From: a virus
Strand: one strand, 5' to 3'
DNA: 22,304 nucleotides
Virus record (IMG/VR): IMGVR_UViG_3300036826_000205
Location: 1 to 22,304 of that record
This document shows, one piece after another, positions 2,196 to 17,700 of the stretch. How positions within the stretch are numbered: position 1 is the first letter of the stretch; each line of letters begins with the position of its first letter. A program made the translations under genes and the position numbers. Under the pieces are notes generated by a model that worked only from the letters and a program-made list of their open reading frames with translations, ran no database searches and was not told the origin of the DNA.

Positions 2196-2477
2196 CTACG
2201 CACTGGGATTGGTGTCGCGGATCGTCCAGTCATTCGCGAGGATATCGACCTGCGACGGGCACCAGACCGCAACATAACCCTGTGCGGTTTGCATATCGAT
2301 GTGGGCGTGATAATCGACCTCGAACCCGACCGGGTAATGCTTCGCCATCGGGCGGCCGGCTGCCACAGCGAAACGTGAGCCGGGCACGAGGAAGAGAAAC
2401 AGTCCCTTGCCGTTCCAACCGGAGCGGGCAACGCAGTGGCCCTGTTTGAGCGCGGCGAGCGCTTCTGCGAAATCCAT
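2196..2477 (-). CDS. tad2-like: DUF2829 / Tad2-like protein, candidate anti-Thoeris factor
   Basis: The 93-residue protein matches the DUF2829 family in order: an N-terminal MDFAEALAALKQG helix, ARSGWNGKGLFLFLVPGS (17-34, with W21), YPVGFEVDYHAHIDMQTA (48-65), then VAVWCPSQVDILANDWTI (69-86). DUF2829 includes Tad2, a phage protein that sequesters the cyclic ADP-ribose-type signal made by Thoeris defence systems (established for characterised members). Function in this phage is inferred from family membership. It lies on the minus strand between terS and terL, its stop directly abutting the terS stop. Its start is 30 bases from terL, so its promoter must lie inside terL. The ATG at 2477 is preceded by a weak GGTAAG. 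The length is typical of the family. Confidence 0.85.
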   Translation of the reverse strand: MDFAEALAALKQGHCVARSGWNGKGLFLFLVPGSRFAVAAGRPMAKHYPVGFEVDYHAHIDMQTAQGYVAVWCPSQVDILANDWTIRDTNPSA

Positions 2478-2507: not shown

Positions 2508-3791
2508 TTGATCGATCCAGAGCGATTAGAAGTCATCCGCCAGCAAGTCGAGTTCAAGCGGATCGTGCGCTTTCTCTTCAAGCCGCATTGGCTGAAGGTC
2601 CTGTACGGCGGGCGCGGCGGCATCAAATCGTGGTCGATGGCGCAAGCCCTGCTGATTCAGGGCATGGAATCGACGCAACGCATTCTCTGCTGTCGCGAGT
2701 TGCAGAAGTCGATTGCAGAGTCGGTACACGAGCTGCTCGAGCATCAGATCAAGCGGCTCGGAATCACAGACCTGTATCGCGTCGAGAAAGCGCACATCTA
2801 CGGGCCGGATGGCACCGAGTTCGCGTTCACTGGCCTGCGCGATGCGCAGAACTTGAAAAGCTACGAAGGCTTTGATCGCGCCTGGGTCGAAGAAGCGCGC
2901 AACGTGAGTAAGCGCTCCTGGGATATGCTCTTTCCCACGATTCGCAAAGAGGGCGCGGAGGTGTGGGTCTCCTTCAATCCCGAGCTGGATACAGACGAGT
3001 CTTACAAACGATTCATCCTGAACGCGCCACCGGGCGCGATGGTGGTCAAAACCTCCTGGCGCGATAACCCCTGGCTGAGTTCGCACTTACTCGATCAGAT
3101 CCACCACATGGAAGCGACGGCACCGGACGATTTTCTGCATATCTATGAGGGCGCCTGCAAGGTTACGCTCGATGGTGCCATTTACGCGCATGAGATTCGC
3201 GCACTGACGCAAGCGAACCGCATCACGCGCGTGCCGTATGATCCGGCGCTCCCGGTGCATACCTTCTGGGACCTCGGCATCGCGGATCAAACCGCCATCT
3301 GGTTCGTGCAGTCGGGCGCGTTCGAGTTTCGCTTCATCGACTTCTATCAGGCGCGTAACCTGCCGTTGTCGCATTACTTGCAGACCTTGCAAGGCCGCGG
3401 TTACGTCTACGGCTTTCATCACTTGCCGCACGACGGCAACCGGCGCGATTTAGGAACCGGGAAGAGCATCGAGCAGAACATGACGGCGGCCGGCTTCCGC
3501 GTCAAGATCGTGCCGCAGATCGGGCTCGCGAACGGCATCAATGCGACACGCAATCTGTTCGCGCGCAGCTACTTTGACGAAGTGAAATGCACGGACGGCT
3601 TGAATTGCTTGCGGCGCTATCGCTGGCAAGTGAACCCGGACACCGGGATTTACTCGAAAACGCCGCTGCACGACGACAACTCGAACGGCGCGGATGCATA
3701 CCGCATGGCGGCCGTAGGGCTCACCGAGCCGGCGCGGAAGAAGGAAGAACAGCGGCAGCGTTTCCGGGCGCAGGTCAGCGCCTGGTCGTAA
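2508..3791 (+). CDS. terL: terminase large subunit (Terminase_3 type ATPase/nuclease)
   Basis: TerL powers DNA translocation into the procapsid and cuts the concatemer. Visible are a Walker A-like loop, YGGRGGIKSW (33-42), the Walker B region FDRAWVEEA (122-130), and a coupling-type WVSFNPE (153-159). The C-terminal RNase H-like nuclease shows acidic residues at D255 (FWDLG), D309 (LPHDGN) and D396 (NGADAYR). At 427 residues it is near the usual size for this family. In Walker A, isoleucine replaces the glycine normally before the lysine; related terminases often carry alanine there. No ATG is available at the N-terminus. A TGA directly precedes TTG at 2508, which is the likely start, without a clear Shine-Dalgarno. 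It is separated from terS by the antisense Tad2-like gene. Confidence 0.95.
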   Translation: MIDPERLEVIRQQVEFKRIVRFLFKPHWLKVLYGGRGGIKSWSMAQALLIQGMESTQRILCCRELQKSIAESVHELLEHQIKRLGITDLYRVEKAHIYGPDGTEFAFTGLRDAQNLKSYEGFDRAWVEEARNVSKRSWDMLFPTIRKEGAEVWVSFNPELDTDESYKRFILNAPPGAMVVKTSWRDNPWLSSHLLDQIHHMEATAPDDFLHIYEGACKVTLDGAIYAHEIRALTQANRITRVPYDPALPVHTFWDLGIADQTAIWFVQSGAFEFRFIDFYQARNLPLSHYLQTLQGRGYVYGFHHLPHDGNRRDLGTGKSIEQNMTAAGFRVKIVPQIGLANGINATRNLFARSYFDEVKCTDGLNCLRRYRWQVNPDTGIYSKTPLHDDNSNGADAYRMAAVGLTEPARKKEEQRQRFRAQVSAWS

Positions 3792-3867
3792 AAAAGTTTC
3801 AGGCGAGGCCTACGCTCGGCGAGTTATCAAGTAGAGCGGCTTTAAAAGCTTGAGTGCCTGGAGTTAG

Positions 3868-4023
3868 ATGCTATTCAGCTTGATTGTTTGCGGATACGGG
3901 GTGACGCTGTACGTCCATTACTACGACCCGGTTTTCGACGAGCGGCATCGCTTCAAGTTCGGCATTTTCTCGCGTCACCGGTTGCTGTGGAAAATCAAGA
4001 TCGCACGAAGGCTTCGATCTTGA
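3868..4023 (+). CDS. 51-residue protein with N-terminal membrane segment
   Basis: The frame MLFSLIVCGYGVTLYVHYYD... has a short hydrophobic N-terminus (about 1-18), then a tyrosine/histidine-rich turn and a strongly basic tail (SRHRLLWKIKIARRLRS). This suggests a small membrane-anchored protein with a basic cytoplasmic end. A GGAG motif lies four bases before the ATG. The last 29 bases overlap the 3' end of a minus-strand gene (3995-4255), so the two are convergent. It may follow terL in the same transcript after a 76-base gap. No family is recognised. Confidence 0.45.
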   Translation: MLFSLIVCGYGVTLYVHYYDPVFDERHRFKFGIFSRHRLLWKIKIARRLRS

Positions 4024-4255
4024 TCGAGTGGAGACGGTTCAGCTCGCGCTGAAGCGTCCGCACCGTGCCAACCCAGACGCCGGCCTCTATTGAGCCGAGC
4101 GTGTACGGGACATAGCGCGGGCCGAGAAGCTGACGCGGCGGGGCGGGCCAGGCCGGATACAAACGCCGGCGCCAGGCGAGCCGCTCGATCTCTTCGAGCG
4201 TGGGTTGCGCGATCAGCGGCGCCGCGAGCACAGCCAGGAACGAACGGCGGTTCAT
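3995..4255 (-). CDS. small protein with twin-arginine-type signal, unknown function
   Basis: The 86-residue protein starts MNRRSFLAVLAAPLIAQP, a twin-arginine (RRxFL) motif followed by a short hydrophobic core and an Ala-rich cleavage region. Export by the Tat system is therefore plausible. The mature part contains LEEIERLAWRRR, the Pro/Trp-rich YPAWPAPPRQLLGPRYVPYT, and a C-terminal helix (VRTLQRELNRLHSIKI). The ATG at 4255 overlaps the stop of the upstream minus-strand gene (ATGA), so the pair is translationally coupled. A longer frame starting at 4321 exists, but the ATGA junction and the signal favour 4255. An exported product is unusual among head-assembly genes. It could be a lysogenic-conversion or superinfection factor, but no function is assigned. 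Confidence 0.55.
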   Translation of the reverse strand: MNRRSFLAVLAAPLIAQPTLEEIERLAWRRRLYPAWPAPPRQLLGPRYVPYTLGSIEAGVWVGTVRTLQRELNRLHSIKIEAFVRS

Positions 4256-4488
4256 TGGGGCAGGATCGCACGAATGCGAAACGGCGCGATGTAGCAGGGC
4301 ACGCCGGGCATGTCGTCCCATTCGACGTAATAGCCAACAGAAAAGCCGGCGCGCACCATCGGCGCGACTACCCGGCCCCGCGCTCCGTCACGATGCAAGT
4401 CTTCCGGCTTGGATTCGATCTTTTCGATGAGCGTCCCCGCGGGTAGCGCGGTGGACGCAGGAAACAGCGTTAGCACCTTAGACAACAC
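4252..4488 (-). CDS. small conserved-looking protein with GYYVEWDDMPGVP motif
   Basis: From a GTG at 4488 this encodes 78 residues. The C-terminal half contains DGARGRVVAPMVRAG then GYYVEWDDMPGVPCYIAPFRIRAI. That is a compact SH3-like beta pattern; a similar GYFVEWDD-PG-PV stretch occurs in small phage-associated hypotheticals as I recall, though I cannot search. The hydrophobic start (LSKVLTLFPASTALPAG) could be a weak signal or part of the fold. A TTG at 4536 would extend it but would overlap the plus gene starting at 4490. The GTG leaves the two divergent starts one base apart. Its stop overlaps the ATG of the Tat-signal gene, so they form a two-gene antisense unit. Confidence 0.55.
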   Translation of the reverse strand: MLSKVLTLFPASTALPAGTLIEKIESKPEDLHRDGARGRVVAPMVRAGFSVGYYVEWDDMPGVPCYIAPFRIRAILPQ

Positions 4489-4489
4489 T

Positions 4490-4693
4490 ATGGCAAAACT
4501 CACCGCCGCGCAGCGGAAAGCGCTGCCGGCCAGCAAATTCGCCGGGCCGAATCGGTCCTATCCCGTCAACGATCGGGTCCACCAGATCAAGGCCGAGCAG
4601 TTCGCGACGAAAGAAGAGAAGAAGGGGAAACTCTCGCCCGCCGCGGCGAGCCGCATCCACGCCAAAGCGCAACGCCTGTTGGGAGAGAAGTAA
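4490..4693 (+). CDS. 67-residue basic phage protein
   Basis: The product reads MAKLTAAQRKALPASKFAGP, NRSYPVNDRVH, then a Lys-rich helix ending RIHAKAQRLLGEK. The pattern 'ALPASxFAGPxRSYPV.D..H' is a familiar small phage motif (as in DUF6582-type segments), often found near packaging and portal genes; the role is unknown. Its size and the SYPV.D..H motif resemble the N-terminal region of some phage scaffold/protease-associated proteins. The longer frame from 4409 would add 27 poorly conserved residues, so ATG at 4490 is preferred. The next gene starts with TTG two bases after this stop and uses the GGGAGAGAAG at the end of this gene as its ribosome site, so the two are co-translated. Confidence 0.65.
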   Translation: MAKLTAAQRKALPASKFAGPNRSYPVNDRVHQIKAEQFATKEEKKGKLSPAAASRIHAKAQRLLGEK

Positions 4694-4694
4694 T

Positions 4695-5312
4695 TTGCGC
4701 CGCATCGACGAAAAGCAAGTGAATCACATGCTGATGTCGCATGGACTCGGCAAACTGGACGATCCCGGCCTGGTTCCGCAGCTCCGCTTTGTGGTCTCGC
4801 GCGTCATCAAAACGCACGAGCAGTTTCGCGAATTGCTGAACCGCTGCGAAGGCTCGAAGCGCTACGCCATGTACGAAGCGCTGCACTCCGCGCTGCCGTT
4901 CCAGGCGAAGCCGCTGGATGTGTATATCGCCGAACTGGCTGACCTGGCCGAGCGCAAACAGTTGCCGATCGTGCAACCGGACGGCACGCTCGCCGAATTC
5001 AAGGTGCCGGAGATTAGCTCTCAGCCCGCGGCGATCAGCGATCGGCCGGATGAGGCGCTCGAAGCCGCGTACTGCCGGCCCGCCGAAGAAAAACTCGCGC
5101 AGGCGCTGGTCGAAGAAACCGCGGCGGAAAAGTTCCTCGAACTGGTTTGCCGGAGCTGCACGCGCGGGGAAACCTTCGCCGGCTGGAACAAGGACGCCGC
5201 CATCGCGAAAGCCCGCGAGGCCGGTTGGCGCGACGTGTACTCGACCGCCCGGCAAGAGCACGCCGAGCTGTGCCCCGTGTGCATCGAGAAGTACTGGCCG
5301 AGCTTGAAGTAA
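4695..5312 (+). CDS. 205-residue protein with C-terminal Cys4 zinc-finger-like motif
   Basis: The start is a TTG at 4695 preceded by GGGAGAGAAG at 4681-4690. The N-terminal half is helical (DEKQVNHMLMSHGLGKLDD, then RFVVSRVIKTHEQFRELLNR). The middle (about 95-120) is Pro/Ser-rich and probably a linker. The C-terminus has CRSC and CPVC (about 152-155 and 192-195) flanking GETFAGWNKDAAIAKAREAGW. This is the arrangement of a small treble-clef or zinc-ribbon fold, and aromatic residues (EKYW) follow. Such Cys-Cys 'GW' domains are common in hypothetical phage proteins. Metal binding is inferred. It sits just before the portal gene. The stop abuts the stop of a minus-strand gene (5312|5313). Confidence 0.7.
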   Translation: MRRIDEKQVNHMLMSHGLGKLDDPGLVPQLRFVVSRVIKTHEQFRELLNRCEGSKRYAMYEALHSALPFQAKPLDVYIAELADLAERKQLPIVQPDGTLAEFKVPEISSQPAAISDRPDEALEAAYCRPAEEKLAQALVEETAAEKFLELVCRSCTRGETFAGWNKDAAIAKAREAGWRDVYSTARQEHAELCPVCIEKYWPSLK

Positions 5313-5480
5313 TCACGAAACACTGAGCCACTCTTCCACCGTGCAGCGCCAACACGTTGCACGGCAGCGAGACCACTGAAATTTGCCCGTGCGCACATAG
5401 CGCGGATGCCAACGGCTCCAGGTGTGGGTCACGCCCACCATGCCGCACCGCTCATAGAGCACCGAATCGAAACGCACCAC
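5313..5480 (-). CDS. small Cys/Trp-rich antisense protein, possible zinc ribbon
   Basis: The 55-residue frame from a GTG at 5480 contains RCGMVGVTHTWSRWH and a C-terminal FQWSRCRATCWRCTVEEWL. With C12, C39, C43, C46 and the histidines it has the composition of a small metal-binding ribbon. It exactly fills the gap between two plus genes. Its stop abuts the stop at 5312, and its start is seven bases from the portal ATG at 5488. Alternatives are GTG at 5477 and ATG at 5441; none has a clear ribosome site. No plus-strand frame occupies this gap, which supports a coding assignment. The function is unknown. Confidence 0.45.
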   Translation of the reverse strand: MVRFDSVLYERCGMVGVTHTWSRWHPRYVRTGKFQWSRCRATCWRCTVEEWLSVS

Positions 5481-5487
5481 TACCAGA

Positions 5488-7695
5488 ATGGCTGACAAGA
5501 ACGAAGCGCTGCTGAAGCGCATCCGCGACCGCTATCGCTACGCCTCCGACCAGTGGCGGGAAGCCCGCGAACAGCGCCGCATCGACATGCGCTTCATCCA
5601 GGGCGATCCGTGGGAGGAACAGGACCGCAAAGCGCGCGAGGACGCCGGCCGCCCGTGCATCAACCACGACGAATTAGGCCAGTACGTGAATGCCTCCGTG
5701 AACAACGTGCGGCAGAACAAACGCGGTATCAAGGTTTCGCCCGATGGCAATGGCGCGACCGAACAGACCGCGGCCAATCAAGAGAACCTGGTCCGCACCA
5801 TCGAGAAGAACTCCGGCGCGCCGTTCATTTACTGCCAAGCCTTTCAACAGATGGTGGAAGGGTCCTATGGCTTCTTTCGCGTCTCGCGGAAGTACGTTTC
5901 CGATGATTCGTTTGACCAGGAAATCTGCCTCAAGCCCATCGCGAACCCGGATAGCGTCCTCCCTGATCCGGACTGCAAAGAGCCCGACTGGAGCGACCAG
6001 CGTTACTCGTTCGTGCTCGATCCGATGTCGCGCGACGAATTTAAGCTGCGCTGGCCGAAGGCCAAGATTCAGGACTTCTCGAACGAAGACATGCGGGTAG
6101 CGCCCCAGTGGATTCGCGAGAACGATGTCGTGACCGCCGAGTACTGGGAGGTAGAGATCGAAGAAGTCACGCTCTACCTGCTCGCCTCGGGCAAAATCAC
6201 CGACGATCCAGAACCGCATCACAACATCGCCCGCTCACGCACCGTGGAGCGCAAGAAACTCGTGCAGTACTTCACCAACGGCGTGGAGATTCTGGAACGC
6301 ACCGAACAGCCAGGCCCGCTCATTCCCGTCATTCCGATGATCGGGCTGGAGCGCTGGATCGACGAGGGCTCAGGGCCGAAGCGCGTCATCAATTCGCTGA
6401 TCCGCCTGGGGCGCGACCCGCAGATGTCGCACGCCTATCTGTGCTCCCTCGAAATGGAGGAAGCCGGGCTCACTCCGAAAACCGCGTGGAAGGGATACAA
6501 GGGCCAGTTCGAGAGCGACTGGGAAGCCTGGACCACCAGCCACAAGATTCCGCATGCCGTTCTGCAAGCCGATCCGATGGTGGATGGCGCCACGGGCCAG
6601 GTGCTCCCGCTGCCCACGCGCGAGCCGTTCACCCCCAATTTCCAGCAGTACGAGATCGCGAAAGACTCCTGCCGGCGCGCCATTCAGGCGGCGATGGGCA
6701 TTTCGCCGCTGCCGACCGCTGCGCAGCGCAACAACGAAAAGTCCGGTGTGGCGCTGGAGCGCATCACCGATGCGCAGAACCTCGGCTCGTATCACTTCAT
6801 CGACAGTTTCGATCGCGCGCTGCAATACGCCGGCCGCGTCATTCTTTCCTGGATTCCGGTTACGTATGACACCGAGCGCGAGCTATCGCTCCGCAAAGCC
6901 GACGATTCGCACCTGACCGTGCGCATCAACACCGAGACGCCGTACCTCGACGAGAAGACGCAACAACCGGTGCATTTCGATACCGCGGAAGGCGATCACT
7001 ATCCGGATATTTCGACTGGGCCAAGTTACCAGTCGCAGCAGGAAGAGGCCGCGGCGTTCCTCGACACGCTGATTCAGAACATGCCCAACCTGCCGGTGGC
7101 GCCGCCGCAGGCCGCGAAGCTGCTCGCTTTAGCGATCCAAATGCGGAATCTGGGGCCGAAGGGCGACCAGATGGCCGAGATCATCGCGCCCGCCGACCAG
7201 ACCGGCCAGCAGGCGATGCAGATGGCGCAGCAGGCGCAACTGCAGAACCAACAAATGCAGGAAGCGATCGCCAAGCTGCAGGCCGAACTGCAAAAACTGC
7301 AAATCGAACGCGCCGGCAAGGTGATCGACAACCAGGGCCGCCTGGCGATCGAAAAGATGAAGATCGAAGCCGGGCTCGCCGAAGCCGAGATCGAAACGAA
7401 AGCGCAGATCGCCAGCGAACGCAACGAGTTCGTTTCCGATTTGTGGAGCCAGATGCACGACCAGGCGCACGAACACGCCATGCAAATCGCGGATCAGGCG
7501 CACGGGCGGCAGATGACGGAGCTGGAGCAACAGCACGAACAGGCGCTCGCGAGCCAGCAAGCCGTGCAGCAGCAACAGCAGCAGCAAGCCGATCAGGCGC
7601 ACGAGATCGGGATGGCGCACCGCCAGGGCGAGCAGCAATTGAAGCTCGCCAAAGCGAAGCCGCAACCAAAGCCCAACGGGAGCGCGCAGAAATGA
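5488..7695 (+). CDS. P22 gp1-like portal protein with long Gln-rich C-terminus
   Basis: The portal forms the dodecameric vertex ring through which DNA enters and leaves. The N-terminus (LLKRIRDRYRYASDQWREAR, DMRFIQGDPWEEQDRKARED, then GRPCINHDELGQYVN) is the signature of P22-type portals. So are the internal NPDSVLPDPDCKEPDWSD and the IRLGRDPQMSHAY region. The length of 735 residues is close to P22 gp1, about 725. From about residue 560 the protein becomes Gln/Ala/Glu-rich coiled coil with an uninterrupted glutamine run near 691-697. In P22 this end forms the helical barrel that senses packaged DNA. The start has no Shine-Dalgarno. The stop overlaps the ATG of a 35-residue gene (ATGA at 7692-7695). 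Confidence 0.93.
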   Translation: MADKNEALLKRIRDRYRYASDQWREAREQRRIDMRFIQGDPWEEQDRKAREDAGRPCINHDELGQYVNASVNNVRQNKRGIKVSPDGNGATEQTAANQENLVRTIEKNSGAPFIYCQAFQQMVEGSYGFFRVSRKYVSDDSFDQEICLKPIANPDSVLPDPDCKEPDWSDQRYSFVLDPMSRDEFKLRWPKAKIQDFSNEDMRVAPQWIRENDVVTAEYWEVEIEEVTLYLLASGKITDDPEPHHNIARSRTVERKKLVQYFTNGVEILERTEQPGPLIPVIPMIGLERWIDEGSGPKRVINSLIRLGRDPQMSHAYLCSLEMEEAGLTPKTAWKGYKGQFESDWEAWTTSHKIPHAVLQADPMVDGATGQVLPLPTREPFTPNFQQYEIAKDSCRRAIQAAMGISPLPTAAQRNNEKSGVALERITDAQNLGSYHFIDSFDRALQYAGRVILSWIPVTYDTERELSLRKADDSHLTVRINTETPYLDEKTQQPVHFDTAEGDHYPDISTGPSYQSQQEEAAAFLDTLIQNMPNLPVAPPQAAKLLALAIQMRNLGPKGDQMAEIIAPADQTGQQAMQMAQQAQLQNQQMQEAIAKLQAELQKLQIERAGKVIDNQGRLAIEKMKIEAGLAEAEIETKAQIASERNEFVSDLWSQMHDQAHEHAMQIADQAHGRQMTELEQQHEQALASQQAVQQQQQQQADQAHEIGMAHRQGEQQLKLAKAKPQPKPNGSAQK

Positions 7696-16557: not shown

Positions 16558-17700
16558 ATGATCCTCGACTGGTCAGCCGAACTCGGTTACATCGGCCTGC
16601 GGCCGCTGGTCCGTTCCTGGGGAGCGGACGGGGCGGCGGCCACCACGCCGACACAGCGCGGCAACATCGACTACGACCAGATTCGCGCCCCCGCCCGGCA
16701 CGGCATCGGATCACAGATTCAGATGTTTTCGGGCGGTCCGAGCGCGGCCGGCCAGGTCGCCGTCTTCGATGCTACGGGAAACCTCGTTCCTTCAAGCGGC
16801 GGCGCGGGCGGCGGCGTGTCGAGCGTCGGTCTTTCGATGCCGGGCGAGTTCAGCGTTTCCGGTTCCCCGGTTACATCTTCGGGCACGCTGGCCGTCAGCA
16901 AAGCCAATCAAAGCGCGAACGAGGTCTATGCGGGACCCACGAGCGGCGGGGCCGGGGCGCCCGCGTTCCGCAGTCTGGATTCGGCTGATCTGCCGGTGGC
17001 GACTACTTCGCAGCTCGGAGCGGTGCAGCCGGATGGCACGACCGTCACGATCTCGGGCGGTGTCATCAGCGCTGCGGCTTCCTCAGAGGGGCCATTCACC
17101 GCGCCTCCCGCCGCGGCCAACTGGATCCAGCAGAATTTTTCAGCTCAAACGTCGCTGACGGACTTCACGTCGCCTGTACATGGGGTCCGCATCGCGGAAG
17201 CGGTGCACAGTTACGGGAACACCAATCTCGCGCGGTACGCGCTGCGGGCCATTGTCAGCTCGCACTGGTCGATTAAGGCCAGGCTGCGCCGGCACAACAT
17301 CACCACAAGCTTTATGGCCTGGGGCCTGGTCGTGCGGGATTCGGCAAGTTCCAAGTCGGTTGTGTTCGGTTTCGATTTTGAGGCGGGCGGCCTGGGCGGC
17401 GTCAAGATGACCAACGACACGACCTATAACGGCGCTCTCAATCTCGGCGGCAACCAGTTGCCGTACCAGATGAACATCTGGATCCGGCTCGATTACGACG
17501 GCACGAACTGCACCATGCGGATCTCTGCCGACGGCGTCTACTGGTCGCAGGTTATCCAGTACGCGAGTTCGGCACTCTGGGGCTTTCTGACAAACGCCGC
17601 GACGCATTACGGCTTCGGTTACAACGCGAACAACTCCGGAAACGGAGGGGTCAATCAAGAAGTCGACCTGCTCTCCTGGACCGAAAGCGCGTTGCCGTGA
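16558..17700 (+). CDS. tail fibre / spike-like protein with C-terminal lectin-like domain
   Basis: The 380-residue product starts with an anchoring segment (LDWSAELGYIGLRPLVRSW). It continues with Gly/Ser-rich fibre repeats (SVGLSMPGEFSVSGSPVTSS, ANEVYAGPTSGG, AFRSLDSADLP), a pattern frequent in phage fibre shafts. Residues about 185-375 form a beta-sandwich (TSFMAWGLVVRDSA, VVFGFDFEAGG, MNIWIRLDYDGTNCTMRISA) resembling a concanavalin or laminin-G type carbohydrate-binding fold. No lyase or hydrolase motif is visible, so binding rather than cleavage is expected. The stop overlaps the start of the next gene (TGATG). This is likely the principal receptor-binding tip. Confidence 0.65.
   Translation: MILDWSAELGYIGLRPLVRSWGADGAAATTPTQRGNIDYDQIRAPARHGIGSQIQMFSGGPSAAGQVAVFDATGNLVPSSGGAGGGVSSVGLSMPGEFSVSGSPVTSSGTLAVSKANQSANEVYAGPTSGGAGAPAFRSLDSADLPVATTSQLGAVQPDGTTVTISGGVISAAASSEGPFTAPPAAANWIQQNFSAQTSLTDFTSPVHGVRIAEAVHSYGNTNLARYALRAIVSSHWSIKARLRRHNITTSFMAWGLVVRDSASSKSVVFGFDFEAGGLGGVKMTNDTTYNGALNLGGNQLPYQMNIWIRLDYDGTNCTMRISADGVYWSQVIQYASSALWGFLTNAATHYGFGYNANNSGNGGVNQEVDLLSWTESALP

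Follow-up and report, generated by a model that had tools for sequence, protein, structure and literature searches.

The terS-tad2-terL junction

The window (the whole stretch of 22,304 nucleotides that was analysed) carries a small gene of the Tad2-like family on the strand opposite to, and exactly between, the genes for the two terminase subunits. The features of this region are listed below.

1911–2195, + strand: terS, small terminase subunit (phrog_15261, E 3e-21; phrog_18735/641, E 1e-4)
2186–2570, no strand: segment without counterpart in the relatives L083/L084 (aligned by blastn up to 2185 and again from 2571)
2196–2477, − strand: tad2-like gene (Thoeris anti-defence 2-like, PF11195), 93 aa (Pfam, PDB, fold and codon score)
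2508–3791, + strand: terL, large terminase subunit, TTG start, divergent from tad2 (PF04466, Terminase_3, E 8e-40)
3791–4481, no strand: second segment, after terL, absent from L084 and with antisense ORFs (aligned by blastn up to 3790 and again from 4482)
3995–4258, − strand: antisense ORF starting MNRRSFLAVLAAPLIA (codon score 0.13 per codon)
4252–4440, − strand: second antisense ORF of the post-terL block (codon score 0.27 per codon for the span)

The terS stop codon (TAG, 2193–2195) directly abuts that of tad2 (2196–2198). At its other end tad2 is separated by a 30-base gap (2478–2507) from the TTG at 2508, which is the first possible terL start because a TGA at 2505–2507 closes the frame upstream. 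The antisense placement of the gene, with abutting stops and 30 bases before terL, is thus as the original prediction had described it. Further neighbours are a portal and a coat, both P22-like. Upstream of terS lies a tyrosine recombinase (770–1471), conserved in L083/L084/L086, which suggests that the phage is temperate or that the enzyme serves recombination of another kind. A GNAT-like acetyltransferase at 17697–18155 matches the phage head-morphogenesis family phrog_651.

The tad2 ORF begins at an ATG that is the earliest start possible in its frame. Its codon-usage score of 0.20 per codon lies above the maximum (0.10) of a null set of 53 spurious ORFs, each of about 60 aa or more. The protein scores 83 bits (E 2.3e-23) against PF11195 (Tad2-like / DUF2829), for which the curated Pfam cut-off is 25 bits, and its residues 1–86 cover profile positions 1–72 of 73, so that the score exceeds the cut-off across the full domain. 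All 15 columns that are invariant among 36 family sequences, this one included, are kept (F3, R18, G20, W21, N22, G23, K24, G25, L26, F27, W72, S75, D78, D83 and W84), although such motifs had partly served to find the relatives and the set is therefore biased towards the motif residues. Most of these positions fall into two blocks, GWNGKGLF (G20–F27) and W-PS--D-LA-DW (W72, S75, D78, D83–W84). The gene had been predicted to encode a full-length Tad2-like protein with the conserved blocks of the family, and this is borne out. The terS-tad2-terL arrangement recurs in a second contig (L002/L082), with 99.985% DNA identity across 6,516 bases and an identical Tad2 protein.

As a protein, this is a normal and routine new Tad2 relative; the unusual part is the slot that its gene occupies. 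Tad2 genes in other phages often lie within a few kilobases of terL and are nearly always co-oriented. Of 72 non-redundant Tad2 loci, only 5 are on the strand opposite to the local majority, and each of the 12 annotated phages inspected has tad2 in the orientation of the adjacent genes, in keeping with the earlier remark that the position is odd. In the closest IMG/VR relative besides the identical copy (L003, 58%), tad2 is again placed between terS and terL, but there it is in sense orientation and accompanied by other small ORFs. In a set of about 150 relatives of TerL, the end of the same-strand ORF upstream almost always lies no more than about 50 bases from the start of the TerL domain. 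In 24 members of the clade, mapped from coat and TerL matches, it is mainly the window's virus, L085 and L086 that have antisense genes immediately next to terL. Antisense placement of a Tad2 gene by the terminase is rare.

Empty sites and other genes beside terL

The nearest relatives, L083/L084 (TerL 77% identical), have no tad2, and the end of their terS runs about 20 bases into terL. In comparison with L084, the 3′ end of terS is identical for about 90 bases up to 2185, and identity resumes at 2571 within terL. The intervening segment holds tad2 together with the 30-base gap and reaches 63 bases into terL. On the far side of terL, the next gene of L084 has its ATG about 15 bases after the terL stop, at the place where the window carries its second block. 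The first ORF of that block (3995–4258, − strand) is 58% identical to L086 4665–4844(−), which has the same place and orientation there; the full second ORF (4252–4440, − strand) gave no Pfam or PHROG match. As both segments are missing from L084, both antisense blocks flanking terL are dispensable. It had been proposed that packaging and anti-defence are physically locked together, a view contradicted by the empty site of L083/L084 and by the different contents found in L085/L086. The ends of the first insert look alike (CGTGTTTATTGAC on the left, CGTGTTTTATTGATTG on the right), yet an ungapped repeat finder returned no direct repeat pairing them as a target-site duplication, and we therefore claim no mechanism of insertion.

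L085 and L086 (TerL 71% and 67% identical to that of the window's phage, respectively) carry different antisense ORFs with CxxC pairs upstream of terL, and further antisense ORFs after it; terS is not seen in L085 because the contig begins there. Scored from an internal Met, the upstream ORF of L085 lies above every null ORF, and that of L086 above the 95th percentile of the null and below its maximum. The coding signal of these ORFs is modest. A comparison of the two zinc-ribbon slot proteins gave no convincing homology between them. An antisense ORF upstream of terL in L151 was set aside, as it overlaps the terS frame and the TerL start and looks spurious.

After terL, L086 has at least four small antisense ORFs (4097–5537), zinc-ribbon-like and Acb2/Tad1-like proteins being among their products. 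The Acb2/Tad1-like ORF (5193–5537, − strand) scores 21.8 bits against PF24729, the Acb2/Tad1 hairpin, for which the cut-off is 27. It is homologous (E 4e-8) to L203 11150–11440, itself scoring 51 bits against PF24729, and has in common with other Acb2/Tad1 members the pattern YHPxTP...PDRTxAxRKLREAxMxANxAI. Its model is a helical hairpin, for which Foldseek returned nothing significant, T4 Vs.4 appearing only at E 4.4. With a score below the family cut-off, we refer to the product only as Acb2/Tad1-like. A gene 65% identical to it is found in L272, an unrelated phage with a different terminase, arranged as follows.

L272 4420–4929, − strand: terS (phrog_4044, E 4e-25)
L272 3164–3508, + strand: Acb2/Tad1-like gene, antisense between terS and terL
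L272 3042 downwards, − strand: terL (phrog_2)

In L272 an ORF adjoining the Acb2/Tad1-like gene is likewise antisense between terS and terL (3164–3780), and terL is split into two ORFs. A further PF24729 protein (44 bits) is encoded in L300 on the strand opposite terL, upstream of terS. The Acb2/Tad1 sponges belong to a different gene family from Tad2 and have an unrelated, helical fold.

Fold, expression and predicted function of the Tad2-like protein

A monomer model of the tad2 protein was calculated with AlphaFold2 from an alignment of 36 relatives from the window and IMG/VR (pLDDT 88). All 24 Foldseek matches in the PDB with E ≤ 0.001 are Tad2/AcrIIA7 chains, the best being ModTad2 with His-ADPR (PDB code: 9eib; TM 0.81/0.86). 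The comparison with Tad2 structures that had been suggested therefore supports a Tad2 fold. Searched by sequence against the PDB, the protein matches ModTad2 (E 3e-17), HgmTad2 (E 6e-15), SPO1 Tad2 (E 3e-14) and the AcrIIA7 chain 9kzr (E 3e-13); PDB entries also label HgmTad2 as 'AcrIIA7' or 'inhibitor of type II CRISPR-Cas'. ModTad2, from a Myroides odoratus prophage (PDB codes: 9eib, 8v3e), is of the same Pfam family and fold with about 40% identity and is a short domain without a long insertion, as the tad2 protein also appears to be; its ligand, His-ADPR, is known, whereas that of the tad2 protein is only predicted. Family, fold and conserved blocks are also common to SPO1 Tad2 (gp34.65; PDB codes: 8sme/8smf/8smg) and to HgmTad2/SptTad2 (PDB codes: 8kbi–8kbk, 8wjd), which have gcADPR or cyclic dinucleotides (CDN) as known ligands. 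HgmTad2 and SptTad2 are longer than the tad2 protein between the two conserved blocks.

Tad2 proteins that have been characterised block Thoeris by binding its signal as tetramers, gcADPR being held by that of SPO1 and His-ADPR by ModTad2 (PMC12043709, PMC13299392); the anti-Thoeris class is typified by a homotetramer with two such pockets. Their pocket is reported to be lined by the loop between beta1 and beta2 and by the beta4-alpha3 loop and helix alpha3 (PMC12043709), elements to which, by our own placement, the GWNGKGLF and W-PS--D-LA-DW blocks would correspond. By analogy with these members, the product of tad2 would form a tetramer and sequester the ADP-ribose-derived messenger of the Thoeris TIR proteins, whether gcADPR or His-ADPR, and the Thoeris effector would then stay off during the build-up of capsids and packaging proteins. 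What the Thoeris sensor recognises is, according to PMC12043709, the major head protein of the phage, and it would therefore make sense for a sponge to be ready before capsid synthesis.

Since tad2 opposes the late operon, it is expected to be transcribed independently of it, and late transcription through the gene would tend to shut it off. Its transcript is plausibly made early or in the lysogen, and we infer expression before or outside late transcription. A promoter inside terL had been considered obligatory. A scan for promoters and terminators, however, returned no promoter-like site inside terL or upstream of tad2, and no terminator behind tad2; read-through from the second antisense block (3995–4536) is possible. 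In total the scan gave one promoter-like site (at 1777, not relevant here) and four terminator-like sites, both numbers at the shuffled expectation. A terminator-like site on the − strand at 3812–3800 folds no better than shuffles and was discarded. A strong hairpin (1656–1683, z −4.8) lies between the recombinase and terminase genes and is a possible transcription boundary.

Given the family membership and the supported fold, an anti-Thoeris role may fairly be inferred for tad2. Overall, we assign a probability of roughly 0.72 to the reading in which tad2 is an accessory antisense anti-defence gene that is transcribed independently and encodes a Tad2-like sponge for the ADP-ribose messenger of Thoeris.

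The nature of the messenger is where the nearest alternative arises. A sponge of the same family could be directed at another signal, such as the cyclic dinucleotides of CBASS: HgmTad2 and SptTad2 were solved with cGG, the CDN site residing in an insertion between beta2 and beta5 (PMC12043709), and Acb2/Tad1-like sponges are found at comparable sites in L086 and L272. In the tad2 protein, however, that insertion looks short or absent. Its domain of 86 residues is near those of ModTad2 (82) and SPO1 Tad2 (83); that of SptTad2 has 95, and in HgmTad2 the segment joining the conserved blocks is about 14 residues longer. Because the form is short and without a clear CDN-binding insertion, an ADP-ribose signal appears the likelier ligand, and we regard a CDN sponge as unlikely. 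The target need not be Thoeris at all, as the family is also named AcrIIA7 or type II CRISPR-Cas inhibitor; the match to 9kzr and the deposition of HgmTad2 under that name would suit an anti-CRISPR, or else a nucleotide-binding protein that has been domesticated for a part of the phage cycle other than defence. The AcrIIA7 chains nevertheless fall within the Tad2 family themselves, and among solved structures ModTad2 with His-ADPR is the closest relative, which makes this reading improbable.

About as improbable, and if anything slightly more so, is that tad2 is a decaying or silent passenger, an unexpressed antisense gene within the late operon. Its orientation and the lack of a recognisable promoter in the scan would fit such a gene, as would the loss here of the terS-terL overlap seen in L084, which leaves terL with a TTG start. 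Against this, the frame is intact, the family-invariant residues are all kept, the codon score exceeds the null, and the second contig encodes the identical protein.

The terS/terL junction as an accessory-gene slot

The empty site, the other antisense contents and the Acb2/Tad1-like gene of L272 together argue that the terS/terL junction is an accessory-gene slot. Judged from these sequence comparisons, it has received nucleotide-sponge genes at least twice, the present difference reflecting either gain here or loss in L083/L084. Two unrelated sponge families, beside unrelated terminases, thus have the same kind of antisense placement, and an antisense sponge gene can sit at a junction where most related phages have terS and terL abutting or overlapping. 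This gives a simple rule for searching uncultivated soil phages, in which small antisense genes flanking terL would lead to new genes of counter-defence, and a testable idea about timing, namely that sponges are transcribed against the late operon. The accessory ('moron') hotspots of P2-like phages (PMC9122126) also hold variable small cargo at a fixed junction of conserved genes and are empty in some relatives. The slot described here differs from these hotspots in its position between terS and terL, its antisense orientation and its nucleotide-signal sponges.

A broader and more speculative reading, which we hold to be doubtful as a whole, is that the terminase region of soil podoviruses is a recurrent antisense counter-signalling slot expressed before the capsid, with the uncharacterised zinc-ribbon (L085/L086) and MNRRSFL-type occupants also serving counter-defence. 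The sites would chiefly be the junction of terS with terL and the one that follows terL, with Tad2 in the window's phage and Acb2/Tad1-like proteins in L086/L272. The antisense orientation would uncouple expression of the sponge from the late operon, so that the sponge precedes capsid synthesis.

The phage, from soil, is a P22-like podovirus, probably of Acidobacteriota. Among bacterial genomes, the closest sets of TerL, portal and coat belong to Acidobacteriota MAGs (L197, L198 and L203), and the probable link to this phylum comes from their similarities of about 37–52%. Among 396 Acidobacteriota genomes, Tad2 is present in five and Acb2/Tad1 exceeds the cut-off in five; none of the five Tad2-carrying genomes has the gene near a TerL of this phage's type. 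In three Acidobacteriota sequences (L391, L392 and L393) the PF24729 hairpin lies inside open frames of about 400 codons, possibly a fused or host-encoded form.
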